Shown in pieces: positions 868 through 26,406 of a stretch of 64,000 bases of DNA; position 1 is the stretch's first letter, and each line of letters starts with the position of its first letter. A program made the position numbers and the translations under genes. Origin of the DNA: an uncultured Collinsella sp. (GTDB lineage: Bacteria; Actinomycetota; Coriobacteriia; Coriobacteriales; Coriobacteriaceae); assembly GCA_900541695.1 (NCBI GenBank), contig UQKL01000005.1, positions 42,671 through 106,670 of the forward strand, read 5' to 3'. The notes beneath the pieces were generated by a model that was not told the origin of the DNA, made no database searches, and saw nothing but the letters and a program-made list of their open reading frames with translations.

Positions 868-958
868 TCCCCACCCATAACTTGCGGTGAAATAGGGACT
901 GTTTAGGCTGCTAGAAGGCCTATTCAGTCCCTATTTCACCGCAAGTTATGGGTGGGGA
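868..958. repeat. 34-bp perfect inverted repeat with GGGAC core (family F5)
   Basis: Arms 868-901 and 925-958 are perfect reverse complements of 34 bases around a 23-base loop. Each arm contains AATAGGGACTG. The repeat lies between convergent genes, ending 4 bases from the antiporter stop, so it can act as a bidirectional terminator. Its GGGAC core is shared with the other palindrome families in the window. Confidence 0.9.
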
Positions 959-961
959 TGG

Positions 962-2563
962 CTACGACGCCAGTGTGGCGATGACGGCTTCGTCGCCGGC
1001 GTATATGAGGGTGTTGCCGTCGGGGATGATCGTTTGGCCGTCGCGCTTGAGCATCACCACGATAAACGGGTGCTTGCCTTGTGGCACATCGCGCAGGCGC
1101 AGTCCTGCCAGGCGACCGTGGGGCGTTACGGTGACCTCGCGCAATGTTACCTCGGCACGCTCTTCAAACGTCGGCGCGGCCATCACCAGAAGGTCTCCTT
1201 CCTCAATTACGGTATCGCCGTTGGGTAGCACCGGGTGCGCACCGTCGCGCAGCACCAGGACCACGAGCATGTCGGCGACGCTGCCAATATCGGCGAGCGA
1301 GCGCCCGGCAAACGGATGGCCCGCGCCTACCTTGAGCTTAACGAACGACATGCCGTCCTCGTCGCGGTAATCGTTAAACGTGCGGCGCACGTCGCCTTCC
1401 GCGTCGATCATGTCGAGCTTTTTCGCCACTGCCGGTAGCAGCGAGCCCTGCACTACAATGCTCGACACGGCAATCACAAAGACCAGGTCAAATAGGTCGT
1501 GCCCACCGGGAACACCGACCACCACGGCAAAGAGGCTAAACACGACCGAAGCCGCGCCGCGCAGACCCGCCCAGCTTACGAGCGCGACTTGGCGAGGATT
1601 GGTCTTAAAGGGCGCCAACAGCAGGCCGACGGCGATGGGGCGGCTCACGAAGAGCATAAACGCCATGAGCGCCAGGCCCGGCAACAGCATTTGCGGCAGG
1701 CGCGCGGGCGTGACGAGCAGGCCCAGCAAAAAGAAGATGGTCATCTCGGCCATTTCGGTGAGGGTATCAAAGAAGTGGGCCATCTCGACCTTGCCGGTGA
1801 TGTCGCTTGCACCCAGCACAATGCCTGCCAGGTATACGGCCAAAAAGCCGTTGCCGCCCAGGTAGCTCGGCAGCGCGTAGGCAACGATCGCCACGGCGAA
1901 CAAAAAGATGGTCTGCGCGCCCTCGGCCGTTGCGTGCGCGCGTTCAATGAGGCGGCTGGATGTCCAGCCGATGGCAAGGCCCAGTCCCACGCCCAGGGTG
2001 ATCTGCTTGGCCAACAGCACGGGAATGTCGATGTCGCCGCCCGCCGCGAGGGTCGCGAGCACCGCGGTAAGCATGTAGGCGACGGGGTCGTTGGAGCCCG
2101 ATTCGACCTCGAGCAGCGAGTCAGTCGCGCCCTTTAGCGAAAGGTTGTGCTCGCGCAGCACGCTAAAGACGCTCGCCGCATCGGTCGACGCCACGACCGA
2201 GCCCAGCAGCAGGCCGCCGATCCAGTCGAAGCCTAGTGCAAAATGCGCAAAGGCGCCCGTGATGCCGGCGGTGGCGATAACGCCGAGCGTGCTCAGCAGT
2301 ACCGCGGGCGCGGCGACGGGCTTGGCGCGGTCGATGTTGGTGTTAAAGCCGCCGTAGAACATGATGAACAGCAGCGCCGTACTGCAGACGGTTTCGGTAA
2401 GCGCGTAGTCGCTAAAGTCGATGTGCGCCGGCCCGTTGACGCCCAGCAGCATGCCGAGCGCGATAAAGATGAGCAGGGTAGGGAAGGGGAGCTTTTTGCC
2501 GACGGGTTTGATGGTCAGACACAAAATGATGACGAGGCCGATAAAGAGAAGTATCTGGTTCAT
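962..2563 (-). CDS. CPA1-family K+(Na+)/H+ antiporter with RCK-C domain
   Basis: A 533-residue inner-membrane antiporter of the NhaP2/CvrA type, expected to exchange K+ or Na+ for protons. Residues 1-390 form about 12 hydrophobic segments and include the transport-core ESGSNDP motif (around 153-159) and the GLRGAAS motif near residue 335. The C-terminal 140 residues are soluble and resemble an RCK-C/TrkA-C regulatory domain (for example PNGDTVIEEGDLLVM), with a second, weaker copy at the very end. Length fits NhaP2-type proteins. The ATG at 2563 has AGGAG upstream. Ion specificity is not determined. Confidence 0.88.
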   Translation of the reverse strand: MNQILLFIGLVIILCLTIKPVGKKLPFPTLLIFIALGMLLGVNGPAHIDFSDYALTETVCSTALLFIMFYGGFNTNIDRAKPVAAPAVLLSTLGVIATAGITGAFAHFALGFDWIGGLLLGSVVASTDAASVFSVLREHNLSLKGATDSLLEVESGSNDPVAYMLTAVLATLAAGGDIDIPVLLAKQITLGVGLGLAIGWTSSRLIERAHATAEGAQTIFLFAVAIVAYALPSYLGGNGFLAVYLAGIVLGASDITGKVEMAHFFDTLTEMAEMTIFFLLGLLVTPARLPQMLLPGLALMAFMLFVSRPIAVGLLLAPFKTNPRQVALVSWAGLRGAASVVFSLFAVVVGVPGGHDLFDLVFVIAVSSIVVQGSLLPAVAKKLDMIDAEGDVRRTFNDYRDEDGMSFVKLKVGAGHPFAGRSLADIGSVADMLVVLVLRDGAHPVLPNGDTVIEEGDLLVMAAPTFEERAEVTLREVTVTPHGRLAGLRLRDVPQGKHPFIVVMLKRDGQTIIPDGNTLIYAGDEAVIATLAS

Positions 2564-2884
2564 GGGTAGTGTCCGCTCCTGGGTGGTTGGCGTGGCACGG
2601 TCAGTTGTCTGCGGTTATTTGTACCCAAAGATGGTGGGTTTATGGGGCCGAGCCGCGGGCGTTCGCATTATCGACACGAGGCGGGGGGCGCGGGCGGTGC
2701 TGGTTGGGGCGTTGGTGCTGGTGGCGCGGTGTTTTCGGGGCGTGCGGGCGGCCGCTTGTGACCGTTGGCAGCGGTGGCACTTTCCAGCTTTATTGCAACG
2801 GAGTACAATGGGTAACGTTTAAGTTCAACTTGAAGTTTTAGTCGTGGCATCGGGCTTCGGCCGTAATGCAGGGAAAGGCGTTCC
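2564..2884 (+). promoter_or_regulatory. intergenic region with sigma-A-like promoter for the phosphatase gene
   Basis: This divergent 321-base spacer holds no convincing gene. A promoter candidate for the downstream phosphatase is TTTCCA (2781-2786), a 17-base spacer and TACAAT (2804-2809), placing the start about 65 bases before the ATG. No operator was seen. Confidence 0.4.
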
Positions 2885-3724
2885 ATGGCGATCTATGTGA
2901 CATCTGATGCTCACGGGCACGTGCGCGCGCTGGACGAGGCCCTTTCCAAGATCTCGCTGACGTCCGACGACACGCTGTACGTGCTAGGCGACATGATCGA
3001 CCGCGGTCCCGATCCGGTCGGTGTCATCAACTTGGTGCGGTCGCTGCCCAACGCTCGCGTGCTTAAGGGCAACCACGAGCAGATCATGCTCGACGCGATC
3101 ATTGGCCAGGACCCGCTCGATGCCGAGACCTGGGATATCAATGGCGGTTGGACCACGCGTCAGCAGCTCAACGAAATGGAATTTGAGGCATACGAGGGGC
3201 TGGTGCGCTGGGCTGCCGCCCTGCCGCTCTACGCGGTGGTCGAGACTGCCGAGCGACCGTATCTGCTGGTGCACGCCGGCGTTCAGACCGAGGCGGCGCG
3301 TGCGTTTTTGCTTGAGCATGGTGTCGATTGCGGCGACGGCAGGGGAGCGGTCGATGCCGATAGCGAGCTGCTGCAGCAAATGCTCGCCGTGCAGTCGTCC
3401 GATGACTTGCTGTGGATTCGTCACGGCTACTGGGATGCCCCGACGGGGCTGCTTTCTGCCGAGGGCAAGGGCCCGGTCGTGGTGAGCGGCCACACGCCCA
3501 CGGTGTCGCTGGGGCGTTATTGCGAGGTTGGCGGCCTGGCAGGGCTCGATGAGGAGTCGGGCCGCGGGCGGATGGTGCGCTTGGGTGGCGAGGATACCGC
3601 CGGCGTGCCCGATCGCATCGATATCGACTGTGCGGCGGCCACCGGTTCCGAGTTCGGCCGCGTGGGCATCCTGCGCCTGGACGACGGGGCGGAGTTTTAT
3701 GCGAACATTCTTCCTGGCGAATAA
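2885..3724 (+). CDS. PPP-type metallophosphatase (Ser/Thr phosphatase or Ap4A-hydrolase-like)
   Basis: A 279-residue cytosolic calcineurin-like phosphoesterase. The metal-ligand motifs appear in order: SDAHGH near residue 8 (family norm GDxHG), GDMIDRGP near 36, GNHE near 61, VHAG near 125 and SGHTP near 200. The spacing and the GDMIDRGP/GNHE pair are typical of PPP phosphatases related to PrpA and to symmetrical Ap4A hydrolases. The substrate could be phosphoprotein or dinucleoside polyphosphate. The ATG at 2885 follows GGGAAAGG. The gene appears to be transcribed alone. Confidence 0.85.
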   Translation: MAIYVTSDAHGHVRALDEALSKISLTSDDTLYVLGDMIDRGPDPVGVINLVRSLPNARVLKGNHEQIMLDAIIGQDPLDAETWDINGGWTTRQQLNEMEFEAYEGLVRWAAALPLYAVVETAERPYLLVHAGVQTEAARAFLLEHGVDCGDGRGAVDADSELLQQMLAVQSSDDLLWIRHGYWDAPTGLLSAEGKGPVVVSGHTPTVSLGRYCEVGGLAGLDEESGRGRMVRLGGEDTAGVPDRIDIDCAAATGSEFGRVGILRLDDGAEFYANILPGE

Positions 3725-3731
3725 CTTTGTT

Positions 3732-3753
3732 CCGCCGTTCTACCGAACGGCGG
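3732..3753 (+). terminator. hairpin after phosphatase gene
   Basis: A perfect 9-base stem (3732-3740 with 3745-3753) with a 4-base loop lies 8 bases after the stop. There is no U-tract, so it could be a 3'-end stabiliser or a Rho-dependent end. Confidence 0.4.
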
Positions 3754-3919
3754 CCACGTTGACGCTGCGCAGCCCCGAAGCACCCCATCTTGTCGCTCAA
3801 ACCGTCGCTCGCGTACGGAAGTACGCGTCGCTCCTCTTTCGCGCCAACCTGAGGCACTTCGAGACTGCTCGCTGTCGGTGCCAAAACATCGACGTTTCTT
3901 TTCTTCAAATTGATTCGAA

Positions 3920-5494
3920 TTAGGCGCCGTACGGGTTGCGGTCGCGTTCTATGCGTTGGCGAATGTGGGCGTATTCGACAATCAACAGCACCAGCAGTAG
4001 GGCCATGATAGCCAGGTAGCTCACGACGGCACCCATCAGGCCCAGCAGGTTGATTAGGATCACTGGGAGCACTACGCTCACGGCAAAGCAGATCAGGTAG
4101 ATCTTGGTGACGTCTCCAACGTGGCGCAGCACCGTGATAATGGCGTAGATAAAATCGATGGCCGCGGTTACGCCGCCAGCGACAACCATCAGCAGCGCCA
4201 ATGTGCGGTAGCGCTCAAAGTTGAGGCCGTACATAAAGCTCATGAGGGGAATGCCGGGGCCGGCCATAAATGCGGCGCATACGCCGGTGATGGCCACGAT
4301 CAGCGCCATAACGGCAATAATAATCAAGTCAAAACGGCGGCGTTTGCGCAGGTTCGCCCAAATGCTCGACAGACGCAAAAGCTGCGGTTTATAGACAAAT
4401 CCAATGCTCAGCAAAATAGCCTGCGCCGGAAAGAACAGGGCATTAAAGTACAGCTGATATTTGTAGGCCAGCGTGCCTTCCATCACAAACTTGGGCATGC
4501 TCTCGATGAGGTTGAACAGGAACAGTGCGCCAAAGAGCGGGGCGCACTGGACAAACAGGTGGCCGACCTCGCGCAGACTCACGCGACGCGATTTTTCGGT
4601 TTCGAGCAGGGCCAGCGGCGCGGTGACCAGCACGAGCGAGACGATGGCGGTGACACCCATGGCCATGGCCGCGATGGGCATGCTGCGCGTAAGGAACAGC
4701 GCCACGCTAAAGACCGCGATGACGCCGACGGAGCGCAGCGTTTGGCTCATGCCGGCCAGGTAGAGTTTATCGGCCTGCTGCAGGCGGCCCTCGTACACGT
4801 CCGCTACGCCGTCGATCACCTTATACAGGTAGACGCCCAGGCCGATCGTTGCCATCTGCGCGTCGTAGCCGCGGGCACTGCTGTATGCAAGGCCGCAGGC
4901 CAGCGCGAATGCTCCGCAAAGCCAGCGGTTGAGCTGGTAGGAGGCAAAGGACGCCTTCTCGTCGATGTCCGAGACCTGAAAATTGCGCACGCCGTAGTTG
5001 CACGCGATCATGATGAGCGTGCCGGTGACAAACGCAATGGAGAACTTGCCGGCTTCCTCGGCGCCCACGAGCTGCGTGGACACGATGGTGAGCAGAGGAA
5101 ACGCCATGCCCCATACGGCGGTGCCCAGGGTATTCCAAAGGTAGTCGCGACGGGTGGCATGATCTTCGTACTCGGCTTCTTGCGTGGAGAAGCCGCCGCC
5201 GTAGACGGCTCCGAGCAGGCGGTTCCACCAGGCATTGACCATGCGGTGGATGGGGCCGGGCTGGCGATCGCGCTCGCGGCGACGGCGTGTGGCCTGGTTG
5301 CTGTCGGGACCGCCGGCGTTACGCTGGCTTAGCTCTTGGATTCGTGCGAGCTCCTCGGCGGTGTGCGATGCGGGGAACAGGCCGTTCTCGATGCGTCCGC
5401 CCTGCCCGTGCGCCCCGCCCGATACGGTGGGGTCGGTGACGCCGTTGCGGCGGGCGATGGCGCGGCGAATACTATCGAGAGGCGAGATGCTCAA
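3920..5494 (-). CDS. polysaccharide flippase, Wzx/MATE-like membrane protein
   Basis: A 524-residue integral membrane protein with an N-terminal cytoplasmic tail of about 110 residues (rich in Arg and Gln) and then about 12-14 hydrophobic segments. Its layout fits the polysaccharide-biosynthesis (Wzx/RfbX) branch of the MOP superfamily, which flips lipid-linked glycans across the membrane. I prefer a TTG start at 5494, seven bases after AAAGGA; a GTG at 5533 is possible but has no ribosome site. The long charged N-terminus is unusual for the family. It may serve the glycan made by the distant glycosyltransferase block, but there is no direct link. Confidence 0.75.
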   Translation of the reverse strand: MSISPLDSIRRAIARRNGVTDPTVSGGAHGQGGRIENGLFPASHTAEELARIQELSQRNAGGPDSNQATRRRRERDRQPGPIHRMVNAWWNRLLGAVYGGGFSTQEAEYEDHATRRDYLWNTLGTAVWGMAFPLLTIVSTQLVGAEEAGKFSIAFVTGTLIMIACNYGVRNFQVSDIDEKASFASYQLNRWLCGAFALACGLAYSSARGYDAQMATIGLGVYLYKVIDGVADVYEGRLQQADKLYLAGMSQTLRSVGVIAVFSVALFLTRSMPIAAMAMGVTAIVSLVLVTAPLALLETEKSRRVSLREVGHLFVQCAPLFGALFLFNLIESMPKFVMEGTLAYKYQLYFNALFFPAQAILLSIGFVYKPQLLRLSSIWANLRKRRRFDLIIIAVMALIVAITGVCAAFMAGPGIPLMSFMYGLNFERYRTLALLMVVAGGVTAAIDFIYAIITVLRHVGDVTKIYLICFAVSVVLPVILINLLGLMGAVVSYLAIMALLLVLLIVEYAHIRQRIERDRNPYGA

Positions 5495-5570
5495 GGCGGA
5501 GTCCTTTCTATTGCTGCGCTCTAGTATAGACACGACGGCGTTTGATCGTGTTTTTGAACAGGTTGTTCAA
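5495..5570 (-). promoter_or_regulatory. flippase promoter with TTGAACA palindrome
   Basis: On the minus strand TATACT (5528-5523) is a good -10. Upstream, 5554-5570 is a perfect palindrome of TTGAACA and TGTTCAA around GGT, just above the expected -35, which is itself weak. This suggests a dimeric regulator site. Confidence 0.4.
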
Positions 5571-5594
5571 TATTGTAGGCGGTGCCATTCAGTA

Positions 5595-5654
5595 GTCGGC
5601 ACTTAGGGACGTTCCTTATGTGCCGACACTTTGGGAGTGTCCCTAAGTGCCGGC
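5595..5654. repeat. paired palindromes with GGGAC core (family F3)
   Basis: Two inverted copies of one palindromic unit lie head to head: 5595-5610 pairs with 5639-5654 with one G-T mismatch. The first unit is itself a hairpin (GTCGGCAC 5595-5602 with GTGCCGAC 5620-5627) with AGGGACG inside. A GGGGAC/GTCCCC remnant follows to about 5700. A half copy is near 18404. Confidence 0.75.
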
Positions 5655-5756
5655 ATCTGGGGACACTCCTTGGTTATTGCCTGTTCAAGAGCGTCCCCAA
5701 TGGCTAGGCCGCTTGCCTGTGATTTTTGACCGTTGGGCGGGCGCTTCGCCGTTGCC

Positions 5757-5772
5757 GCAAAAACGTTTTTGC
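5757..5772. promoter_or_regulatory. 16-bp perfect palindrome upstream of pckA
   Basis: GCAAAAACGTTTTTGC is perfectly palindromic with a central CG, the layout of LacI/CcpA-family operators. It lies 75 bases before the pckA ATG. The regulator is not in the window. Confidence 0.45.
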
Positions 5773-5846
5773 ATATCGGGTACAACGGGCTTTACGTGAG
5801 TAAAGTGCGCGCCGCGTCCGCGTGTCGCGTTTTTAAAGGAGGCCCC

Positions 5847-7532: not shown

Positions 7533-7573
7533 AAAACCACCACGAAGGGGACAGGCACCTTTGTGGTGGTTTT
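7533..7573 (-). repeat. 41-bp palindrome, family F1 copy 1 (terminator-like)
   Basis: Arms 7533-7548 and 7558-7573 pair with one mismatch around a loop reading GGACAGGCA. The right arm ends in TTTT, so it can end pckA transcription. Two further copies, in the opposite orientation, are at 8493 and 10536. Confidence 0.85.
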
Positions 7574-7606: not shown

Positions 7607-7744
7607 GACATATCGTCCCCTTCTCCGGATGGGGACAGCGCAAGCGCTCTTGTGGCGGCACCGTAGGACTTTGAAGGTGGCCGTCGTAAGGGCGCTTTTT
7701 GTTTGGGTGCCCTCGCTCGGGCGCGAATCGTGAAGGGAGCACGT
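7607..7744 (+). ncRNA. structured 5' leader with internal terminator hairpin (attenuator-like)
   Basis: The leader contains a GTCCCC/GGGGAC hairpin (7615-7636) and then an 8-base stem GCGCTCTT (7644-7651) with AAGGGCGC (7688-7695) that runs straight into TTTTTGTTT. That is an intrinsic terminator about 45 bases before the ATG. A competing AGCGC/GCGCT hairpin (7637-7648) would use the same bases. Inside the terminator stem, GGCGGCACCG resembles the T-box core GGTGGNACCG with T changed to C. The leader is too short for a normal T-box, so the class is unknown. A third hairpin lies at 7707-7722. Confidence 0.5.
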
Positions 7745-8464
7745 ATGAAGAGCTTTATTGCCGAGGATTCATTTTGGGAGCTGTTTCCTCAGGCGGCGGT
7801 CGGTGTTGTGGTCGTGGAGGGTATGAAGCCCGCGGCCCAGATACCTCAAGAGGATGTGGACGCGATAGCGGCGCTGCTCGACCGTGCCAATATCGATGCG
7901 GAGCGTCATCTGACCAGCGATACAATCAGCGAGAACGCACCGGTCAAGGCATGGCGCGAGGCCTATCGTCTGTTCAAGACCAAAAAGGGCGCGCGCTGTT
8001 CAATCGAGAACCTGCTCAAGCGCGTGCTCAAGGGCAAGCCGGTGGGCCACATTACGCCCGCGGTGGATATCTATAACACGGTGTCGCTGTCCTATGCACT
8101 GCCCGTGGGAGGCGAGGATCTGCATGCGATTGAGGGGGACCTTCGCTTGAAGGTGACCGACGGCGGGGATGCGTTCCTGCCGCTTGGCGAGGAAGCGGAC
8201 GACCCGACGCTGCCCGGCGAGCTCGCCTACATTGACGATGCGGGCGCCGTGTGCCGCTGCTGGAACTGGCGCGACGGCGTTCGAACGGCTCTATCCGACG
8301 ATTCGGCCGACGCGTTTTTGGCGATTGAGTGCGTAGAGCCCGAGCGTATGGGGGACTGTCAGGCCGCCATCGATCGCTTAGCCGAGCTGCTTGAGCGCTA
8401 TCTGGGGGCGACGGTTGTCGTTAAGACGCTTGTGACCCGCGACAATCCCCGCGTGGAGCTGTAG
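7745..8464 (+). CDS. B3/B4 tRNA-binding-domain protein (PheRS beta B3/4-like)
   Basis: A 239-residue free-standing protein with the B3/B4 fold found in the phenylalanyl-tRNA synthetase beta chain, where it edits mischarged tRNA. The family signature DIYNTVSLSYALPVGGED is in the middle (around 115-132). Free-standing copies are thought to act in tRNA or aminoacyl-ester hydrolysis, but the substrate is unproven. The ATG at 7745 follows GAAGGGAGC; a longer frame starting at 7703 would overlap the leader hairpins and is not preferred. An attenuator-like leader precedes it and an F1 palindrome follows 29 bases after the stop. Confidence 0.8.
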   Translation: MKSFIAEDSFWELFPQAAVGVVVVEGMKPAAQIPQEDVDAIAALLDRANIDAERHLTSDTISENAPVKAWREAYRLFKTKKGARCSIENLLKRVLKGKPVGHITPAVDIYNTVSLSYALPVGGEDLHAIEGDLRLKVTDGGDAFLPLGEEADDPTLPGELAYIDDAGAVCRCWNWRDGVRTALSDDSADAFLAIECVEPERMGDCQAAIDRLAELLERYLGATVVVKTLVTRDNPRVEL

Positions 8465-8492: not shown

Positions 8493-8533
8493 AAAACCAC
8501 CACAAAGGTGCCTGTCCCCTTTGTGGTGGTTTT
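8493..8533 (+). repeat. 41-bp palindrome, family F1 copy 2 (terminator-like)
   Basis: Arms 8493-8508 and 8518-8533 are perfect 16-base complements around TGCCTGTCC. It is the same element as at 7533 but inverted. It ends in TTTTT and should terminate the B3/B4 transcript. Confidence 0.9.
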
Positions 8534-10061: not shown

Positions 10062-10074
10062 CCAACCTGCCAAC

Positions 10075-10164
10075 AAATGATCCCTTGGGGACGGAGGAAA
10101 ACGGATCATCGACCGCACGGAGGCCGCGAATGATCCGTTTTCCTCCGTCCCCAAGGGATCATTT
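10075..10164. repeat. 35-bp perfect inverted repeat with GGGAC core (family F4)
   Basis: Arms 10075-10109 and 10130-10164 are perfect reverse complements around a 20-base loop. Each arm is itself a small hairpin (ATGATCC with GGATCAT) enclosing TTGGGGACGGAGG. A half copy lies at 26268-26298 and a decayed copy near 17033. Confidence 0.9.
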
Positions 10165-10198
10165 CTTTATGCTGTTAATGCGGAGAAGGGAGCGAGCG

Positions 10199-10535: not shown

Positions 10536-10576
10536 AAAACCGCCACAAAGGTGCCTGTCCCCTTTGCGGCGGTTTT
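10536..10576 (+). repeat. 41-bp palindrome, family F1 copy 3
   Basis: Same architecture as the copies at 7533 and 8493, with arms changed to GCC/GGC. One arm change is matched by its partner (compensatory) and one is not. It lies 16 bases after the alkyltransferase stop and ends in TTTT. Confidence 0.85.
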
Positions 10577-14785: not shown

Positions 14786-14849
14786 CGCGTTTGCCGATGA
14801 TTTTTCTGGGACGGGGATTAAAAAATCATTAGGAGTAGTCTTTTTGGGC

Positions 14850-15531: not shown

Positions 15532-17037
15532 ATGGCTTTGACCGACATCTCGCATCCCACCGACATCGCAATGCTCACCGATCTGTACGAGCTCACTATG
15601 GCCCAGGGCCTGTGGGAGAGCGGTAAAGCCAATGAGCAAGGTTGTTTTACGGCGTTTTACCGCGACCATCCGTTTGGTAGCGCGTACGCCGTTATGTGCG
15701 GCACCGCCGAGCTTCCCGAGCTCGTCGAGAATCTACGTTTTACGTCCGAGGATATCGAGTACCTAGCCTCGCTTCAGGCTCCCGCCGGCGGTGCGATGTT
15801 TAAACCCGCATTCCTCGACTACCTGCGCAACTTCCGCGCGCACGTGAACATTGACGCCGTGCCCGAGGGCGAGCTCGTTTTTCCGCGCGAGCCCATGGTG
15901 CGCGTTACCGGTCCGGCGCTGGAGTGCCAGCTGCTCGAGACGGCGCTGCTCAACATCGTCGGCTTCCAGACGCTCGTCGCCACCAAGACGGCGCGCGTGG
16001 TGTTGGCGGCGGATGGCCGTCCCGTCGCCGAGTTTGGCCTGCGCCGCGCCCAGGGTCCCGATGGCGGTCTGGCCGTCGCCCGCGCAAGCTATGTGGCCGG
16101 CTGCTCGTCCACGTCTAACGTCCTTGCCGGGCGCCGTTACGGTATCCCCGTCTTTGGCACACACGCGCACAGCTGGGTGATGAGCTTTGACTCCGAGCTC
16201 GAGGCCTTCCGCGCCTTTGCCAAGTCGAGCCCCAAGAATTGCACGCTGCTCATCGACACCTACGATGTGCGCGAGGGCTGCGAGCACGCCATTACGGTTG
16301 CCAAGGAGATGGAGGCGGCGGGCGAGCGCCTGTCGGCCATTCGCATTGACTCGGGCGACCTGGCCAAGCTCTCCAAGTATGTCCGCGGTCGTTTCGATGC
16401 CGAGGGCCTACCTTATGTGGGAATCTCGGTGTCCAACGACCTGGACGAGTACACGATTCAGTCGCTGCTCGACCAGGGCGCGCCCATCGACAGCTTTGGC
16501 GTGGGCACCAAGCTCGCGACCTGCTACGATCAGCCGGCGCTGGGCGGCGTGTACAAGCTTTCCGCCCGTCGTGCGAGCGATGCGGACCCGTGGACGCCGG
16601 TGGTGAAGCTCTCCGAGCAGCCCTACAAGCGCACGATTCCGGGCGTGCAGCGAGTGCGCCGCTATTACGACGGCTTTGGCGGCCCGGTCTGCGACATGAT
16701 CTATGACGAGGACCATCTGGCGGGGGAGGGCGCCGCGCGCGGCAATACCCTCGTGGCCGTGAACGATGCCGCCCTGGTAACCGATGTGTCGGAGCTTGAG
16801 TATCGCGAGCTGCTGGTGCCGATCGTGCGCGATGGCAGTGCGGTGGCTCCGCGTGAGAGCATCGAGGACGCGCGCGAGCGCTGTGCTTGGGCGCTCGATC
16901 ATCTGGACGCGGCTTTTAAGCGCTTCCTGTATCCGCAGACCTACGTGGTGGGTATGGAACAGGGCCTGGCCCAGGTGCGCGACGAGCTCGTGCGCAAGAA
17001 CATGGCCGCGGCATCGGCTTTCCCCTGGGCAAAATGA
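15532..17037 (+). CDS. pncB: nicotinate phosphoribosyltransferase
   Basis: A 501-residue cytosolic enzyme of the NAD salvage (Preiss-Handler) pathway that joins nicotinate and PRPP to give nicotinate mononucleotide using ATP. The start MLTDLYELTMAQGLWESG, the substrate-site FGTHAHSWVMS (around 207-217) and the IRIDSGDL phosphate-binding segment (around 279-286) match the family. Length fits the long Gram-positive type. The ATG at 15532 follows CGAAAGG. It ends 80 bases before proB on the same strand. Confidence 0.93.
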   Translation: MALTDISHPTDIAMLTDLYELTMAQGLWESGKANEQGCFTAFYRDHPFGSAYAVMCGTAELPELVENLRFTSEDIEYLASLQAPAGGAMFKPAFLDYLRNFRAHVNIDAVPEGELVFPREPMVRVTGPALECQLLETALLNIVGFQTLVATKTARVVLAADGRPVAEFGLRRAQGPDGGLAVARASYVAGCSSTSNVLAGRRYGIPVFGTHAHSWVMSFDSELEAFRAFAKSSPKNCTLLIDTYDVREGCEHAITVAKEMEAAGERLSAIRIDSGDLAKLSKYVRGRFDAEGLPYVGISVSNDLDEYTIQSLLDQGAPIDSFGVGTKLATCYDQPALGGVYKLSARRASDADPWTPVVKLSEQPYKRTIPGVQRVRRYYDGFGGPVCDMIYDEDHLAGEGAARGNTLVAVNDAALVTDVSELEYRELLVPIVRDGSAVAPRESIEDARERCAWALDHLDAAFKRFLYPQTYVVGMEQGLAQVRDELVRKNMAAASAFPWAK

Positions 17038-17065
17038 TCCGCATGCGACGGAGGAAAGCGGACTA
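17033..17065. repeat. decayed F4-type palindrome half copy
   Basis: ATGATCCGCATGCGACGGAG and the following bases match the F4 unit at 10075 with several changes, including in the GGGAC core. It overlaps the pncB stop codon. Confidence 0.4.
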
Positions 17066-17117
17066 TATTCTCGCTCACCCGTTCGCTCGCTTGCTCAGCA
17101 TTCGATTGGTTTGACGT

Positions 17118-18403: not shown

Positions 18404-18429
18404 CCGGCACTTGGGGACATTCCTTTGCT
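18404..18429. repeat. half copy of family F3 with GGGGAC core
   Basis: CCGGCACTTGGGGACATTCC is the same sequence as half of the 5595 palindrome. It overlaps the stop codon of the S33 peptidase gene. Confidence 0.6.
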
Positions 18430-19959: not shown

Positions 19960-21246
19960 ATGTCGGTCGATATAGCCACGTACGTTCACGATCTTGCCGT
20001 CGAGGCCAAGGCCGCTTCTGCCGCGCTTGCCACGGCGAGCGATGCCCAGCGCCAGGAGGCCGTGCGCGCCATGGCCGCGGCGCTGCGCGATGGTGTCGAT
20101 TGCATCATTGCCGCCAACGAGCTCGATATGTCTGCCGCGCGCGATGCGGGCACCTCGGCGGGGCTCCTCGACCGCCTGCTGCTGACGCCCGAGCGCGTTG
20201 AGGGCATGGCCGCCGGCCTGGAGAAGCTCGCTGAGTTGCCCGATCCCGTCGGCCGCGTGCTCGATCACCGCGTGCTTGCAAGCGGTGTGGACCTTACGCG
20301 CGTGAGTGTGCCGCTGGGCCTGGTCGCCATGGTCTACGAGGCGCGCCCCAACGTGACGGCCGACGCTGCTGGCATCTGCATCCGCACCGGCAACGCCTGC
20401 ATCCTGCGCGGCGGTTCGCTGGCCTATCACTCGTGCGCCATGATTGCCGAGCTGCTGGCCGATGCGCTTGAAGCCCAAGGCTTCCCGCGCGAGGCCGTGT
20501 CGATGATCGAGTCTACCGACCGCGAGGCCACCGGCGAGCTCATGAAGCTCCGCGGCATCGTCGATGTGCTCATTCCGCGTGGCGGTGCGGGCCTGATTCA
20601 GCGCTGCGTGCGCGAGTCGCTCGTTCCGGTGATCGAGACGGGCACGGGCAACTGCCACATCTACGTGCATGAGTCGGCCGACTTCGATAAAGCGCTCAAC
20701 ATTATCGTCAATGCCAAGACCCAGCGCGTGGGCGTGTGCAATGCCGCCGAGTCGCTGCTGGTCGACCGCGCCGTGGCCGACGCGTTTTTGCCCGCGGCTG
20801 TGGCTGTGCTGCACGACCACGGCGTGCTCATTCACGGCGACGAGGCCACGTGCGCCACATGCGCCGATTCCGGTCTTGCCGAGGGTGATGACTACGTCGC
20901 CGCGACTGAGGAGGACTGGGGTCGCGAGTACCTGGCTCTCGAGATGAGCGTGAAGGTCGTGGCAAACGAGGACGAGGCCATCGCACACATCAACCGCTAC
21001 GGCACGATGCACTCCGAGGCCATCGTTGCCGAGGACGCGGATGCTTGCGAGCGCTTCCTGGATGCGGTCGATGCCTCGGCCGTGTACGCCAACGCCAGCA
21101 CGCGCTTCACCGACGGCGGCGAGTTTGGCCTGGGTGCCGAGATCGGCATCTCGACCCAAAAGCTCCACGCCCGCGGCCCCTTCGCCGCCGAGGCCCTCAC
21201 CACCTACAAATACAAGCTCCGCGGCACCGGTCAGGTTCGCCCCTAA
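19960..21246 (+). CDS. proA: glutamate-5-semialdehyde dehydrogenase (gamma-glutamyl phosphate reductase)
   Basis: A 428-residue NADPH-dependent enzyme that reduces glutamyl-5-phosphate, the second step of proline synthesis. The aldehyde-dehydrogenase fold signature EARPNVTADAAG (around 127-138) and the catalytic-Cys segment VGVCNAAESLL (around 257-267) are present. Length fits ProA. The ATG at 19960 follows GAGAAAGGG. The stop codon TAA is fused to an F2 palindrome, and a strong intrinsic terminator follows 50 bases later. Confidence 0.95.
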   Translation: MSVDIATYVHDLAVEAKAASAALATASDAQRQEAVRAMAAALRDGVDCIIAANELDMSAARDAGTSAGLLDRLLLTPERVEGMAAGLEKLAELPDPVGRVLDHRVLASGVDLTRVSVPLGLVAMVYEARPNVTADAAGICIRTGNACILRGGSLAYHSCAMIAELLADALEAQGFPREAVSMIESTDREATGELMKLRGIVDVLIPRGGAGLIQRCVRESLVPVIETGTGNCHIYVHESADFDKALNIIVNAKTQRVGVCNAAESLLVDRAVADAFLPAAVAVLHDHGVLIHGDEATCATCADSGLAEGDDYVAATEEDWGREYLALEMSVKVVANEDEAIAHINRYGTMHSEAIVAEDADACERFLDAVDASAVYANASTRFTDGGEFGLGAEIGISTQKLHARGPFAAEALTTYKYKLRGTGQVRP

Positions 21247-21283
21247 ACCTACCAAAAAGGGACAGGTTTATTTTGGCAGGTTT
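21245..21283 (+). repeat. F2 palindrome copy 1 (GGGACAGG core)
   Basis: Arms 21245-21257 and 21271-21283 pair with one mismatch around GGGACAGG. Its first bases are part of the proA stop codon. Other copies are at 22016 and, inverted, at 23267. Confidence 0.85.
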
Positions 21284-21296
21284 TATCTGCGGTTTT

Positions 21297-21325
21297 GCCG
21301 GGCGACACGTTTGCCCGGCTTTTTT
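21297..21325 (+). terminator. proA terminator
   Basis: GCCGGGC (21297-21303) and GCCCGGC (21313-21319) followed by six T residues. Confidence 0.85.
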
Positions 21326-21417
21326 CTCCGTATACCTTTTCTGCCTTTCGGCTTGAGCTACGGCGATATACGATAATGACACCGTGTCCTAGCACCGACT
21401 CACCTGGAGGTATTGCC

Positions 21418-22017
21418 ATGTCCCAGATGCTTTCCGCCGGAATCACCCGCGACCGTGCGTTCGAACTGCTTAACGAGCACAACAAAGACCCGTTCCACAT
21501 CACCCACGGCGAGACGGTCGAGGGCACCATGCGCTACTTTGCGCGCGAGTTCGATCCCAAGAACGAGGAGTTTTGGGGCATCGTCGGCCTGCTGCACGAC
21601 TTGGATTGGGAGGAGCATGAGGACGACCCCGTGAACCACACCATCTATGCGGCAGAAATCCTCGAGGGCGAGGGCGCATCGCCCGAACTCATTCGCGCTA
21701 TTCAGACGCACACGTCCGATTTCAATGCCTCGCTGCCCAAGCCCGAGCTTCAGATGGAGAAGATCCTGTTTGCTTGCGACGAGCTCACCGGCCTGATCGG
21801 TGCTGCCGTGATCATGCGTCCGAGCAAAAGCGTCATGGACTTTACGACTAAGTCGCTCAAGAAAAAGTTCAAGGACAAGCGCTTTGCCGCCGGCTGCTCG
21901 CGCGACGTGATTTCGCAGGGCGCCGAGATGTTGGGCTGGGAGCTTCCCGAGCTCTTCGACCGCACCATCGCGGCCATGCAGTCCTTCGCGCCCGACCGCG
22001 ACACCTTCCAGGCCTAA
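21418..22017 (+). CDS. HD-domain phosphohydrolase-like protein
   Basis: A 199-residue HD-superfamily protein. HGETVEGTMRYFA (around 30-42), the metal-binding LLHDLDWE (around 58-65) and a later HT pair (around 102) are the expected His/Asp ligands of the fold. Related stand-alone proteins are annotated as hydrolases acting on nucleotides, but the substrate is unknown. The ATG at 21418 follows CTGGAGG. The TAA stop is fused to an F2 palindrome. Confidence 0.8.
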   Translation: MSQMLSAGITRDRAFELLNEHNKDPFHITHGETVEGTMRYFAREFDPKNEEFWGIVGLLHDLDWEEHEDDPVNHTIYAAEILEGEGASPELIRAIQTHTSDFNASLPKPELQMEKILFACDELTGLIGAAVIMRPSKSVMDFTTKSLKKKFKDKRFAAGCSRDVISQGAEMLGWELPELFDRTIAAMQSFAPDRDTFQA

Positions 22018-22052
22018 CCTGCCAAAAAGGGACAGGTTTATTTTGGTAGGTT
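22016..22052 (+). repeat. F2 palindrome copy 2, left flank of the RAYT gene
   Basis: Arms 22016-22027 and 22041-22052 (one mismatch) around AGGGACAGGTTTA. It begins inside the TAA stop of the HD gene. It is inverted relative to the copy at 23267, and the two bracket the RAYT gene. Confidence 0.85.
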
Positions 22053-22060
22053 TTATCTGG

Positions 22061-22101
22061 GAAAACGCTTCCGTTGGATGTTATTCAGCGGAAGCGTTTT
22101 C
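22061..22101. terminator. GAAAACGCTTCCG hairpin
   Basis: 13-base perfect arms (22061-22073 and 22089-22101) followed by TGTTTG. It could end transcripts from the HD gene (+) and perhaps from the RAYT gene (-). Confidence 0.65.
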
Positions 22102-22187
22102 TGTTTGACATGGTGACGCTGGCGAATGGCGGCGCCTCGCGGCAGACAGCTGCGCTTCGCCGTATCCGTAACTCGGCAAACGCGACG

Positions 22188-22946
22188 CTACGACGCGTTC
22201 TTGATAATCCATGTTCCCAGTCCGGTCAGCAGCTGAACCTGCTTAACCGTTAGCCCTTGTTTTCGAAGCGCGAGAATCGCCTCATTGCGAAGTGGCTTGG
22301 AGACGGATTTGAGTTCCGTCGGAGCACATCCTGCGACACTCTGCACGATTGCCGTGCCAAATTCGCATAGATCTTCCTCGCGAACCTTGGCTGTTGCGCT
22401 GGGGCGATAGGGAAGCGACGGCGTACTTTCCATGAGCCGAAGGTATGAGCGAGGTGTTGGGAATAAAACACCGACAACGCTGCCGGTAACATGCGGCCGT
22501 GACCTGGCACTCATTAGATACTCGCGATGGCTGCTCCAGGGATATTCGTCGTATGCCGCCAGTCCCGCTTTTTGTGGATTCAGATGAATGTATCGAATTG
22601 CCTCGAGTAAATATACTTCTGACTTAATGGGCGAATCCCAAAACCGCTCCTGAAACACGTGGCCGATATGCCCCGTCCGCGCATTGTACCTGCCCGCATA
22701 CGATACTGCTACCGCGTGCATCGCGTCGCTCTTGCGGTCGTCCGGATCGTCGATGAGCAGATGAATGTGGTTTCCCATAAGGCACCAAGCGATAAGCTCG
22801 ATATTGTGTTTGGGGAGGATCGCATCGAGGATCTGAAGCATGGCGATTCGGTCCTCGGCATCGTCAAACAGCAATTGCCCTCCGTTTCCACGCAACGTGA
22901 TGTGGAAATAACCGGTTGGTGACTTTGAACGAGGTTTTCTCGGCAT
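22188..22946 (-). CDS. REP-associated tyrosine transposase (RAYT, Y1/HUH), intact
   Basis: A 252-residue single-strand transposase of the IS200/IS605-related Y1 class. The HUH motif is NHIHLL (His60, His62). The expected catalytic Tyr is Tyr119 in RYIHLNPQKAG, in the position matching E. coli TnpA-REP. A C-terminal HTH-like tail (LTVKQVQLLTGLG) may add DNA contacts. The ATG at 22946 has AAAGGAGG at good spacing, so it is probably expressed. It is flanked by inverted copies of the F2 palindrome (22016 and 23267), which are the best candidates for its target DNA. Confidence 0.9.
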   Translation of the reverse strand: MPRKPRSKSPTGYFHITLRGNGGQLLFDDAEDRIAMLQILDAILPKHNIELIAWCLMGNHIHLLIDDPDDRKSDAMHAVAVSYAGRYNARTGHIGHVFQERFWDSPIKSEVYLLEAIRYIHLNPQKAGLAAYDEYPWSSHREYLMSARSRPHVTGSVVGVLFPTPRSYLRLMESTPSLPYRPSATAKVREEDLCEFGTAIVQSVAGCAPTELKSVSKPLRNEAILALRKQGLTVKQVQLLTGLGTWIIKNAS

Positions 22947-23193
22947 GGCCCCTCCTTTAGCTTGGATGGGCTGAAGATACCTCATTCGGAGGCTTCGGTT
23001 GTCGAGATTCAGTTCACCGACTATAGCTGCTACCTGCCGAAATGTTATTGCGTTTTCAAATTGATGCTTTTTAATGGTAATTGAGCAAGACAGGCGCGCT
23101 TGTTGTGGATGCGGCCGTTGGTTGCGTCGATCTGGACGGCCCCCGCGTGATGTCATCGCAAATGGGCTTCACGTATTCTACGGATATAGAAAA
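22947..23193. other. RAYT upstream spacer
   Basis: About 250 bases between the RAYT start and the carD terminator. No gene, RNA or clear promoter was seen. Confidence 0.5.
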
Positions 23194-23233
23194 ATGGCCG
23201 GGCGCTCACAAACAAAACGGAGCACCCGGCCAT
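23194..23233 (-). terminator. carD terminator
   Basis: A 14-base stem (23194-23207 with 23220-23233, one mismatch) which on the minus strand runs into TTTTTC. It lies 34 bases beyond the F2 palindrome that touches the carD stop. Confidence 0.75.
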
Positions 23234-23266
23234 TTACTGATTGTTTGTTGACGTTTGGCCAGATAA

Positions 23267-23303
23267 AACCTGCCAAAATAAACCTGTCCCTTTTTGGCAG
23301 GTT
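23267..23303 (-). repeat. F2 palindrome copy 3, right flank of the RAYT gene
   Basis: Perfect 12-base arms (23267-23278 and 23292-23303). On the minus strand it starts within the TAA stop of carD and has the core AGGGACAGG. It is inverted relative to the 22016 copy. Confidence 0.85.
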
Positions 23304-23787
23304 AGTTGAGGGCGGCTTGGGCTAGGCGGGCTTCGGCGGCCTCTTCGGTGACGCCCAGGGCCACGGCGAACTCCTCGATGGAGCGGCGCTTGGCTTCCTT
23401 GAGTACGCGCATGTAGTAGGAGCTGGGCTTTTTATCTGCTTCCTCGGCCTGGCGAATACGGTGCATCATGGTTTTTGCCACGCGAACCGTCTCGGGCGCG
23501 CCCAGCTTGAGCTGCTGCTTAAAGTGCGTCTCCTCGAGCGAGCTATTGCGCTCGGTAAAGGTGTCGCACTCCAGCTCATCGTAGTGGCTCAGCAGGTGCT
23601 CTGCATCTTGCTGGGAGATAGCGGCATGCAGACGGTCGGCCTGCGCCACGGGGTACATGAGAATCGTCTGCGCATGTCCCTGTTTGGTCTCGAGCAACAA
23701 CATGGGCTGCGGTGTGTCGTCCCTAAAGCCGACGACGGTGCAGACTCCCTGACCCGGATGAATGACGTGTTGACCGATTGAGAACAT
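23302..23787 (-). CDS. CarD/CdnL-like transcription regulator
   Basis: A 161-residue protein whose first 60 residues (FSIGQHVIHPGQGVCTVVGF) form the RNA-polymerase-binding domain shared by CarD, CdnL and TRCF. The rest is helical (for example SSYYMRVLKEAKRRS) and matches the DNA-contacting C-terminal domain. CarD proteins stabilise open complexes, notably at rRNA promoters in actinobacteria. The ATG at 23787 follows TTGGAGG. The stop is fused to an F2 palindrome and a terminator follows. Confidence 0.9.
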   Translation of the reverse strand: MFSIGQHVIHPGQGVCTVVGFRDDTPQPMLLLETKQGHAQTILMYPVAQADRLHAAISQQDAEHLLSHYDELECDTFTERNSSLEETHFKQQLKLGAPETVRVAKTMMHRIRQAEEADKKPSSYYMRVLKEAKRRSIEEFAVALGVTEEAAEARLAQAALN

Positions 23788-24129
23788 GCTACCTCCAACT
23801 TATACGAATTTACGTATGTTAAGAATACCACGATGACGTGCGCAAACCATCACTTTATGCAGGAAAAGCACACAACTCCGATAGGTAAGAGTATTCGATA
23901 AATAGAACGGCTTATTCATACGTTTATGCATTTCTAGAACGTGTATAAACAGCAGGCAAACCGCCAACTTTGTACCGCCGCGCAAGAGCGGTAGTCATTT
24001 TTGTGCATATGCAATATCTATTAGCTTTACCCTGCGACAGTAGTTACCGCTTGTGATAGAGTGCAACAAACTCTGGCTTTTGCCCTACGAGTGACCAAGA
24101 GCTCGGGGGCTTTAACACAAGGAGGATCT
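23788..24129. other. divergent spacer between carD and argS
   Basis: A 342-base AT-richer spacer. A possible argS promoter is GCGACA, 17 bases, TAGAGT around 24036-24064. No gene or strong structure was seen. Confidence 0.35.
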
Positions 24130-25983
24130 ATGCCCGAGAAGATTGAAGAGCTGGTACGCGCTGCGCTTGCTGCGGCCCAGGAGGCCGGCGACCTTTCCGC
24201 ATTTGAACTTGACGATTGCGCTATCGAGCGACCGGCTGATACTTCTCATGGCGAGTGGACCTCCACCATGGCCCTGAAGTCCGCCAAGCTGGCTCACTGC
24301 GCCCCGCGCAAGATCGCCGAGGCCGTCGTTGCCCATATGCCCGAGGACCCCGCGATCGAGAAGGTCGAGATCGCCGGTCCTGGCTTCATCAACTTCTACC
24401 TCTCCGTCGCCGTCAAGAACGCCATCTTTGGCGAGGCCCGCGAGAAGGGTATGGACTTCGCTAAGTCCAACGTCGGTGGCGGCCTGAAGACCCAGGTCGA
24501 GTTCGTCTCCGCCAACCCCGTCGGCCCCATGCACATCGGTCATGGTCGCTGGGCCGCTCTGGGCGACTCCCTTTGTCGTGTGATGGACCACGCCGGTTAC
24601 GACATCCAGCGTGAGTTCTACATCAACGACCACGGCTCTCAGATGAACACCTTCGGTAACTCCATCAGCACGCGCTATATGCAGCTTGCCGACATCATCG
24701 CCAAGCAGGGCGTGGATATCGACGAGGCTCACAAGCTGCTGATCGCCGACCGCGACGCCTTTGTTGCCGACGAGAACGACGAGCATCCCGAGACCCATCC
24801 GTATCAGGACAACTTTGCCGAGACCCTGGGCAAGGACTCCTACGGCGGCGACTACATCATCGACGAGGCCGCCGAGTTCTGGCGCACCGACGGCGATAAG
24901 TGGGTCAACGCCGATCCGCAGGAGCGCATGGAGAGCTTCCGCGAGCGCGGCTATGTAAAGATGGTCGACAACATGCGCGACCTTTGCCATGCCGTTAACT
25001 GCGACTTCGATCGTTGGTTCTCCGAGCGCTCGCTGTATGTGAAGGACACCGAGGGCGAGACCGCCGGCACCTCCGCCGTCGACCGCGCTTTTGAGAAGCT
25101 CGACAAGATGGGCTATCTCTACACCAAGGACGGCGCCCTGTGGTTCCGCTCCACCGACCTGGGCGATGACAAGGACCGCGTTCTGATCAAGTCCGACGGC
25201 GAGTACACCTACTTCGCCTCCGACGTCGCCTATCACTGGGATAAGTTCCAGCGCGTCGACCACGTCATCGACATCTGGGGCGCCGACCACCACGGCTACA
25301 TCGAGCGCGTCCGCTGCGTCTGCGACGCTCTTGGCTATCCCGGCAAGTTTGAGGTTCTGCTGGGCCAGCTCGTCAACCTGCTGCGTAACGGCAAGCCCGT
25401 CCGTATGTCCAAGCGCAAGGGCACCATGGTGACCCTGCAGGAGCTTGTCGACGAGGTCGGCTCCGATGCCGCTCGCTACACGCTCATCTCCAAGAGCTCC
25501 AACCAGATGGTCGACTTCGATATTGAGGCCGTTAAGAAGCGCGATAACTCCAACCCGGTCTATTACGTGCAGTATGCTCACGCCCGCGTGTGCTCCATCC
25601 TGCGCCGTGCCGCCGACGTTACGCCCGAGCAGGCTGACGAGATGGGCATGAAGGCCGTCGCCGCCAAGGCCATCGGTGAGAACGTCGATTACTCGCTGCT
25701 GACCGACCCGACCGAGCTCGCCCTTTCGCGTAAGCTCAACGAGCTCACCGACCTGATTGCCAGCTGCGCTCGCGACCGCGCCCCGTTCCGTCTGACGCAC
25801 TTTGCTGAGGAACTCGCCGGCGACTTCCACAGCTTCTACGCTGCCTGCCAGGTTCTGCCGAGCGAGGGCCGTCCCGTCGACCCCGAGCTTTCGCGCGCCC
25901 GTCTGGCCGCTTGCGACGCCGTTCGCGTGACGCTCGCCCTGGTGCTCACCCTCGTTGGCGTTTCCGCGCCCGAGCAGATGTAA
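24130..25983 (+). CDS. argS: arginyl-tRNA synthetase
   Basis: A 617-residue class I synthetase that charges tRNA-Arg. The HIGH motif is GPMHIGHGR (around 130-138) and the KMSKS equivalent is VRMSKRKG (around 422-429). The N-terminal Add-1 domain and the C-terminal helical anticodon-binding domain are both present; length is slightly above average. The ATG at 24130 follows ACAAGGAGG. Codon use is strongly biased toward C-ending codons, as expected for high expression. A strong terminator follows at 26033. Confidence 0.96.
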   Translation: MPEKIEELVRAALAAAQEAGDLSAFELDDCAIERPADTSHGEWTSTMALKSAKLAHCAPRKIAEAVVAHMPEDPAIEKVEIAGPGFINFYLSVAVKNAIFGEAREKGMDFAKSNVGGGLKTQVEFVSANPVGPMHIGHGRWAALGDSLCRVMDHAGYDIQREFYINDHGSQMNTFGNSISTRYMQLADIIAKQGVDIDEAHKLLIADRDAFVADENDEHPETHPYQDNFAETLGKDSYGGDYIIDEAAEFWRTDGDKWVNADPQERMESFRERGYVKMVDNMRDLCHAVNCDFDRWFSERSLYVKDTEGETAGTSAVDRAFEKLDKMGYLYTKDGALWFRSTDLGDDKDRVLIKSDGEYTYFASDVAYHWDKFQRVDHVIDIWGADHHGYIERVRCVCDALGYPGKFEVLLGQLVNLLRNGKPVRMSKRKGTMVTLQELVDEVGSDAARYTLISKSSNQMVDFDIEAVKKRDNSNPVYYVQYAHARVCSILRRAADVTPEQADEMGMKAVAAKAIGENVDYSLLTDPTELALSRKLNELTDLIASCARDRAPFRLTHFAEELAGDFHSFYAACQVLPSEGRPVDPELSRARLAACDAVRVTLALVLTLVGVSAPEQM

Positions 25984-26032
25984 GCTACGGATCATTTGAC
26001 CGTGTAGGTTCGGCTTTGCTGAGCCCTATAAG

Positions 26033-26062
26033 CCCGATCTCCATGCGGAGGTCGGGTTTTTT
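26033..26062 (+). terminator. argS terminator
   Basis: A 10-base stem with ATGC loop followed by six T residues. Confidence 0.9.
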
Positions 26063-26406
26063 GCGTTTGGTGAGACTATTTGGTTTGCTGGGAAATGCTA
26101 CCAAATTGCAACTATACCGGTTTACGGGGCTGAATCGCCAACTGGCGACCATGGTGCCAATAGTGAAATTAAACCCGCAGGTAGATGGCTTATTGTTTCT
26201 TGATAATGCAGGGTATGGTTGGCTTGCAGCATCCTGGCCCCGTAATCCGGCGTAGTTTTGAAAATTGTCCCTTGGGGACGGAGGAAAACGGATCATTTTT
26301 GTCTCGAAGAGGGGTGGCGGGATACCGTCCGTCACGAATTGGGCTCATCTCCTACGTTTGGACGCATATCCCGAACCATGCCGAAAAGTGCGAAAACAAA
26401 ACCGAC
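26063..26406. other. spacer left of IS110 element, with solo F4 half copy
   Basis: No gene was seen. Bases 26268-26298 are one half of the 10075 F4 repeat (CCCTTGGGGACGGAGGAAAA) without its inverted partner. The rest is AT-richer and unassigned. Confidence 0.5.

Follow-up and report, generated by a model that had tools for sequence, protein, structure and literature searches.

GGGAC hairpins with a fixed register at the tip and their association with RAYT genes of probable TIRYT type in Collinsella and other bacteria

The name TIRYT was given by Di Nocera et al. (2013; PMC3733652) to genes for RAYT-like tyrosine transposases that have inverted repeats on both sides; in the sections covered here, these authors saw the motif GGGGWSAS in some of the repeats and called others unrelated. 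Twenty of 26 TIRYTs were subsequently placed in subclass 2.1 of the TnpAY1 transposases (Quentin et al., 2018; PMC6006769); the sections of that article covered here report no REP-like sequences near the subclass 2.1 genes, and describe the hairpins of the IS200/IS605 elements as being recognised in single-stranded DNA. In E. coli, REPINs are said, in the part of the study covered, to be commoner in genomes with a RAYT than in those without, and yet to persist without one (PMC8049555). Here we describe the palindromes present in a window of 64 kb, i.e., the whole stretch of DNA analysed (60% GC; contig UQKL01000005.1 of an uncultured Collinsella sp.), and their relationship with RAYT genes. 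Among the named proteins matched by the glutamate 5-kinase of the window, two are from Collinsella species (77 and 79% identity), some matches without a name being closer. Two RAYT genes, RAYT-A and RAYT-B, are present in the window, as a preliminary description of this DNA had stated. The palindromes are probably the terminal hairpins of TIRYT-type RAYT genes along with their dispersed REP-like copies, in which the GGGAC core at the tip would be recognised by the RAYT.

Five palindrome families (F1 to F5) with different arms and a common GGGAC core had been proposed. The first four were borne out and F5 turned out not to be a member, while a sixth family, F6, had been missed. The members of F1 to F4 and F6 are hairpins whose tip bears GGGAC on its 5' side, in a fixed register from -5 to -1 relative to the dyad base. 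The form GGGACAGG, in which the core was said to be often carried, occurs six times in the window (1.89 expected). When every 5-mer located directly before the dyad base was counted, given a stem of at least seven contiguous pairs starting 6 to 10 nt out, GGGAC ranked first in the window (7 of 82 dyad tallies on both strands, 0.06 expected), in 400 kb of G001, the nearest genome, which has 40% of the sampled 31-mers in common with the window (15 versus 0.25 expected), and in 325 kb of the genus genome G006 (23 versus 0.31 expected). The arms in these three sets belong to many families, such as CCACCAC, CCTGCC, TGTGAC, TAGTCA, and CTCAA. It might be argued that GC-rich genomes simply yield many GGGAC palindromes, all the more since the excess of hairpins in general over shuffles is modest (48 versus 27.6 in the window), but this explanation, the probability of which is practically nil, is refuted by the in-register counts and by a model with a scrambled core, which gave only six hits in the genus-wide census described below.

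The same core is found around RAYT genes. The 209 loci scanned include relatives and 80 named loci, mostly from Bacillota; 205 match RAYT profiles and 201 have both flanks, some of them being duplicates. Inverted repeats were detected by local alignment of the upstream flank with the reverse-complemented downstream flank, GGGAC not being consulted, and were retained when they scored above every shuffle, the shuffles preserving base composition only. They are present at 155 of the 201 loci, 134 of which hold GGGAC, the top count of all 5-mers. When each protein is counted once, there are 188 RAYTs, of which 184 have both flanks. Inverted repeats accompany 147 of the latter, and those of 127 contain GGGAC, where 14.1 are expected; the figures by group are 70 of 85 for Coriobacteriia, 56 of 60 for Bacillota and others, and one of two for Bacteroidota. 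At L106, L172, L187, L111, and L222, each flanking repeat carries at least two tandem hairpin cores, as in BIMEs.

The register is likewise maintained beside the 205 RAYT loci: the dyad lies one base past GGGAC (offset +6) in 180.5 of 225 distinct full-context GGGAC hairpins, ties being shared, and a shuffled-arm control yields 23.85 GGGAC hairpins per round, 1.27 of which are at +6. A wider count, not deduplicated, gives 231.5 of 282 at +6, to which Coriobacteriia contribute 144 of 164 and Bacillota and others 85.5 of 116, and just one of the 32 offsets tallied in its control, with ties taken separately and again without deduplication, is at +6. These hairpins are mostly oriented inward, toward the RAYT (222 of the 282; 60 are outward), as are all five close hairpin pairs in the samples. 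Of the 65 distinct RAYTs with in-register hairpins on both sides of the gene, 52 have GGGAC as the core (55 of 69 with duplicates) and four have GGGTC; TGGTC, GGGCC, AGGAC, GTGAC, and GTGCC are among the single variants, and a few of the others look like spurious dyads.

The polypeptide encoded by RAYT-A (22188-22946, minus strand) contains 252 amino acids from the likely start codon, in a frame open to 23156. Its motifs are intact (HUH in the form NHIH, plus YIHLNP), and it passes the cut-off of PF01797 (33.0 bits, cut-off 23) and matches NCBIfam NF047646 under the curated cut-off (69 bits, E 3.9e-19, cut-off 80). In the structural model, pLDDT exceeds 90 across most of residues 81-210, the five C-terminal helices are predicted with good confidence, and residues 1-68 of the open frame, ahead of the likely start at 71, score below 50. 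The closest solved structure is 4er8, that of the E. coli TnpAREP/RAYT with a REP hairpin (E 3.5e-7). The C-terminal region matches none of the helix-turn-helix profiles HTH_23, HTH_28, and Bac_DnaA_C, which at E up to 0.05 are matched by 13, five, and three of 47 relatives, respectively.

This helical C-terminal region, and the helix-turn-helix matches of some relatives, would fit an alternative in which a C-terminal helix-turn-helix binds the GGGAC duplex as an ordinary transposon end, the hairpin being incidental. We regard it as rather unlikely in view of three features of the repeats. First, the arms covary (score 1.09 versus 0.21 with shuffled and 0.17-0.23 with slid sequences), which duplex binding does not require; the units were preselected for at least six contiguous pairs, so that their pairing is partly due to selection, and the number of pairs with a change on both sides (eight) equals the mean of the shuffles; the score and the cells alone discriminate. 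Second, the register relative to the dyad is exact. Third, a site for a dimer should be symmetric, yet pairing of bases +1 to +5 with GGGAC is seen in just 38-79% of 94 units.

Reading of the tip by the RAYT also accords with the genomic distribution of the hairpins. The census used a 35-position covariance model built from 47 units that flank RAYT genes, some of them in the genomes searched; its counts cover both strands, so that a perfect palindrome may be counted twice, and are lower bounds, at most 150 candidates per genome having been scored in the genus and 28 in the class-wide scan. At E up to 0.1, the 43 genus genomes yield at least 2,973 hits, as against the six of the scrambled-core model, and more than 100 hits were found in six of them. 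The median is 91 hits in the 35 RAYT-bearing genomes, and the five without RAYT have 0, 1, 1, 3, and 71 hits. Since a RAYT-bearing genome may start with about two built-in hits, a threshold of five was used for the class: it is reached in 78 of 99 RAYT-bearing genomes versus nine of 147 others (246 genomes), and outside the genus in 49 of 68 versus eight of 142. These figures assume that the RAYT scan and the hit scan covered the same 246 genomes and count four weak RAYT matches as present; when the latter are dropped, the figures are 78 of 95 versus nine of 151. GGGAC palindromes therefore occur far above chance and together with RAYT genes in related genomes, and this enrichment and this association lend strong support to the earlier suggestion that they are REP-type elements which GGGAC links to RAYTs.

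Among the RAYT-bearing genus genomes, G045, G051, and G056 have fewer than 10 hits (two, one, and nine, respectively). G051, which has the single GGGAC hit, gives 36 hits with a GGGTC model, including both hairpins flanking its only RAYT: since both the dispersed repeats and the RAYT hairpins are of the GGGTC type, the core of the repeats follows that of the RAYT in this genome. Other cores are also found in further GGGAC-poor RAYT genomes: GGGTC in G179, TGGTC in G030, TCGTC in G227, a GACGAC-like core in G045, and in part AGGAC in G216. In G044, 21 GGGTC-core hits occur beside 105 GGGAC hits.

The arms were compared at the 111 of 205 loci with a usable unit (102 distinct proteins), taking the best-matching units of each pair. 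For pairs of RAYTs with at least 75% protein identity (n = 37), identity is 0.97-0.98 in the arms and 0.95-0.99 in the opposite loop half; for those at 60-75% (n = 42), it falls to 0.67 in the arms and holds at 0.92 in the loop; below 50%, arm identity averages 0.40-0.49, with the exception of one pair at 0.57. Arm and loop can change separately, L007 and L010 having nearly the same arm and different loops. In 29 pairs at 75-97.5% identity, many of which are drawn from the same few lineages, the arms are 0.97 identical as compared with 0.72-0.73 in the adjacent 60-nt stretches (random, about 0.48), which suggests that the arms are read or otherwise constrained and are not mere scaffolding. The arms thus look constrained inside a RAYT lineage and exchanged between lineages. 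The idea that target recognition is separated from structure, the core being conserved and the arms variable, holds in that arms differ between RAYT lineages, but not in that they are constrained within each of them.

Several observations weigh against the RAYT-based reading. The 71 hits of G006 occur in the absence of any detectable RAYT, and nine of the 147 RAYT-less genomes reach five hits; since the genomes are related, they are not independent cases and P values overstate the evidence for the association. Conversely, 21 RAYT-bearing genomes have fewer than five hits. Six of these (G056, G085, G203, G209, G187, and G236, with at most four hits each in the class-wide scan) still have GGGAC repeats at their RAYT, and the gene alone is therefore no guarantee of many copies; the repeats look different in G199, and G177 shows none. 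No significant inverted repeat was found at 37 of the 184 distinct RAYTs, and 20 of the 147 inverted repeats lack GGGAC, some having unlike cores. No cognate RAYT for F1, F3, or F4 was found in the sampled loci. Residues separating GGGTC from GGGAC RAYTs were not found either, the best column (K in three of four versus 7.9%) being far from convincing. A few distant RAYTs share arms, such as L106 and L195 (43% protein identity, 14 of 14 letters); up to 2% of pairs below 50% identity share nearly whole arms, many of them TGACAA-like. The F2 family, present in 23-46 copies (up to three mismatches) in 22 of the 43 genus genomes and in none in 21, surrounds RAYT-A as an inverted pair (22014-22067 and 23252-23305; 54 nt, 94% complementary). 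An intact RAYT-A exists only in G004 and G053 of the 43 genomes, with a truncated form in G018, and it is untraceable at E 1e-60 in 19 of the 22 F2-rich genomes. The F2 elements either outlive the RAYT-A gene or were spread by another, and together with the richness of G006 this indicates that the presence of the repeats needs no RAYT gene today. Some families can be matched to RAYTs in other genomes: F6 (14797-14829, plus strand) agrees in 27 of 29 letters with the inverted repeats of RAYTs L235 and L236 of two other genomes, G042 and G014, and one G006 family resembles the repeats of a G015 RAYT (24 of 29).

The location of the hairpins bears on another explanation. Almost all of them had been said to lie at gene 3' ends, which is the case: based on the gene calls of a simple script, eight of the nine registered units of the window have a gene 3' end within 60 nt, the median distance being 28 nt. 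This set leaves out units with fewer than six contiguous pairs, such as that at 10536, and the exception, F3, sits between apparently divergent genes, one of which (3920-5533) has no Pfam match. Among units having a 3' neighbour, those within 60 nt of it number eight of eight in the window, 13 of 17 in G001, and 10 of 14 in G006; between codirectional genes, five of five, seven of 11, and eight of 10, respectively, are nearer the 3' end, about half being expected at random. Only three of 45 sampled units are genic, as compared with 82-84% of random positions. The hairpins might accordingly be intrinsic terminators or mRNA-protecting stem-loops, GGGAC being a transcription or RNA motif and the link with RAYTs secondary; T is indeed the most frequent base at all four positions past the stem (63-73 of 141 units), and the F1 stem is bordered by AAAA and TTTT. 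Terminators do not, however, need a fixed 5-mer at one register. Moreover, inverted copies of the same hairpins border RAYT genes in several phyla, their number tracks RAYT presence, and in G051 their core follows the RAYT; this explanation seems improbable.

Recognition by RAYTs could proceed as follows. The TIRYT-type RAYTs can be likened to TnpAY1 subclass 2.1, with an HUH/tyrosine domain and a C-terminal helix-turn-helix. In single-stranded DNA, probably at replication forks, one strand would fold so that the 5' apical side shows GGGAC before the dyad base. The RAYT would read this apical core, which would give the hairpin its polarity, and the arm sequence may form a second, lineage-specific layer of recognition. 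An inward pair of GGGAC hairpins, placed around the gene or around nothing, as in the REPIN-like F4, would serve as the unit of cutting and copying by the RAYT; any benefit, for example in transcription termination, would come in addition. Certain loop letters were reported to matter in vitro in group 3 TnpAREPs, in the portion of the study covered (PMC8266576), so that reading of the tip has a precedent.

RAYT-B (41097-41909, plus strand; 270 amino acids, frame open from 40884) has degraded catalytic motifs, HVR replacing HUH (GNHVRLV) and Ser the catalytic Tyr (RSVHADP). It scores 34.1 bits against PF01797 (cut-off 23) and 36.3 against NF047646 (cut-off 80). Its 21 loci correspond to 16 places (15 genomes and the window) with 13 distinct coding sequences and the same surroundings, and no inverted repeats were found around the gene at any of them. 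In a set of 121 proteins (the query and 120 listed of 899 matches), Ser replaces Tyr in 67, and 35 have a broken HUH, in 32 cases together with Ser, which suggests that Tyr was lost first. Judging from these sequences, the RAYT-B lineage is losing its catalytic residues under selection that is relaxed and still purifying: pN/pS is 0.15 among four intact forms and 0.24-0.33 among the Tyr-less forms, dN/dS in close pairs of other RAYTs being mostly about 0.04-0.25. Of the 188 distinct RAYTs, 11 of the 12 with altered catalytic residues have no inverted repeats, as compared with 30 of the 176 intact ones (four without a usable flank); since nine of the 12 are RAYT-B, this pattern is largely that of one lineage.

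More tentatively, and with somewhat less than even confidence, it can be proposed that TIRYT-type RAYTs read a two-layer code in single-stranded DNA, consisting of a near-universal apical core at -5 to -1 (mostly GGGAC, sometimes GGGTC or the like) across phyla, together with arms that change faster and are kept within a lineage. The core would be swappable, the repeat set following it, and RAYT-B, a hairpin-less RAYT paralogue in one clade of the genus which in many species has lost Tyr and then HUH under purifying selection, might be a non-catalytic repeat binder.

The window elements stand where the preliminary description had placed them. The F1 units are those at 7533-7573 (plus strand; stem CCACCAC/GTGGTGG, core at 7548, beginning 16 nt past the end of the PEPCK gene), 8493-8533 (minus; beginning 29 nt past the end of gene 7703-8464), and 10536-10576 (minus), which shows the compensatory arm change already noticed, from CCACC/GGTGG to CCGCC/GGCGG, plus one mismatch. 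The F2 units occur at 21245-21283 (plus), at a gene 3' end, and on the two sides of RAYT-A at 22016-22052 (plus) and 23267-23303 (minus). F3 (5595-5655) consists of a registered hairpin at 5595-5627 (plus) and an inverted partner retained by the hairpin rule at 5621-5655 (minus); a decayed half at 18404-18425 (plus) is visible in the letters and fails this rule. F4 (10072-10167) includes a registered hairpin at 10077-10109 (plus) and its inverted partner at 10129-10163 (minus), with dyads 53 nt apart. One decayed F4 half, previously missed, lies at 17032-17066 (plus) and overlaps the 3' end of the gene for nicotinate phosphoribosyltransferase, and another at 26262-26297 (plus) beside an IS110 transposase gene (26421-27764), the 3' end of which is about 120 nt away; the second half of the latter element was not found elsewhere in the window. 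REPs as targets of insertion sequences are the subject of PMC1525189, as far as the portion covered indicates.

The element at 868, which had been counted as a fifth family, is a genuine 42-bp inverted repeat and forms part of a separate palindromic repeat of about 90 bp, F5 (867-959, or 866-960; no strand assigned). Its membership of the GGGAC set was rejected, since the centre varies between copies, often covarying with its partner, while the outer arms (AAGTTGCGGTGAAATA) are conserved; its logic is thus the opposite of that of the GGGAC hairpins. GGGAC is present in the left arm of seven of 14 aligned copies, which apparently represent one locus (the window and six relatives with the same flanks), and the other seven, dispersed in G001, have CGGAC, CGGTC, GTTCC, GTGTC, or GTACT instead. 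F5 matches occur in 23 of the 43 genus genomes, 22 with at least 16-42 each and one with at least two (both strands counted, at most 21 candidates scored).

At Rfam gathering thresholds, the window has no match on the hairpin elements, only four tRNAs. At 35576-36125, three tRNA genes, two of which are nearly identical, are followed by repeated pieces of spacer and tRNA end. A chain of overlapping hairpins at 47943-48017, with TGGGACAA arms, GGGAC in the stem, and centres TAACC and AAACC, is perhaps another repeat family.

No work on the subject was found among the matches listed in a literature search on GGGACAGG, judged by title and start of abstract, and among the matches listed in the open-licence literature there was no description of a fixed register relative to the dyad, of exchanged arms, of a switch of the core, or of the Collinsella elements; DeepHGT (PMC7771070) names Collinsella and palindromes, with no GGGAC motif in the passages covered. 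The closest known systems are the TIRYTs or TIRtrons (PMC3733652), in which, according to the sections covered, tyrosine transposase genes are likewise flanked by inverted repeats, some of them self-complementary and in repeated families or dimers, as here. Their motif GGGGWSAS fits F1 (GGGGACAG) exactly; F2 (AGGGACAG), F3, F4, and F6 are off by at least one letter. The present set differs in having one GGGAC core in 127 of 147 repeats, a single register in most GGGAC hairpins, arms varying with the lineage, and a switchable core, and Collinsella does not occur in the main text of that study. With TnpAY1 subclass 2.1, as described in the sections of PMC6006769 covered, our RAYTs have in common Y[IV]HLNP and, in relatives, a C-terminal domain of helix-turn-helix type; the median length is 238 amino acids versus 252 for RAYT-A, and the tabulated motifs are NHVH and NH[YF]H versus NHIH. 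The difference lies in the hairpins present at most of the RAYT loci sampled here, which were set beside this subclass by resemblance and not by its profiles. IS200/IS605 elements (IS608, ISDra2) have the same HUH/Y1 fold, and RAYT-A differs from them by its extra C-terminal region; GGGAC hairpins are absent from five of six IS200-like loci of relatives (L001-L004, L027, and L028), the exception being L028, where one F2 unit stands on one side.

The hairpins resemble the canonical GTAG REPs and REPINs (subclasses 2.2, 2.4, and 2.5; E. coli, Stenotrophomonas) in that numerous copies are dispersed near the 3' ends of genes, for the most part outside them, in that there are inverted pairs and RAYTs flanked by their own family, and in that copies outlive the gene, as in the persistence of E. 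coli REPINs without RAYT (PMC8049555, in the part covered). They are not canonical GTAG REPs: GT[AG]G occurs within 6 nt of the foot in three of 141 units, 2.7 being obtained by shuffling. The 35-position covariance model finds them genome-wide with very little background (the six scrambled hits in 43 genomes). Since nature offers ready-made mutants, in which the core is swapped from GGGAC to GGGTC or the arms are swapped around a fixed core, DNA recognition by domesticated transposases becomes directly testable, as does the origin of new REP families. A large RAYT subclass supposed to be REP-less would thereby gain a REP type of its own, in which the conserved letters are placed in exact register at the tip of the hairpin instead of forming a GTAG at its foot.

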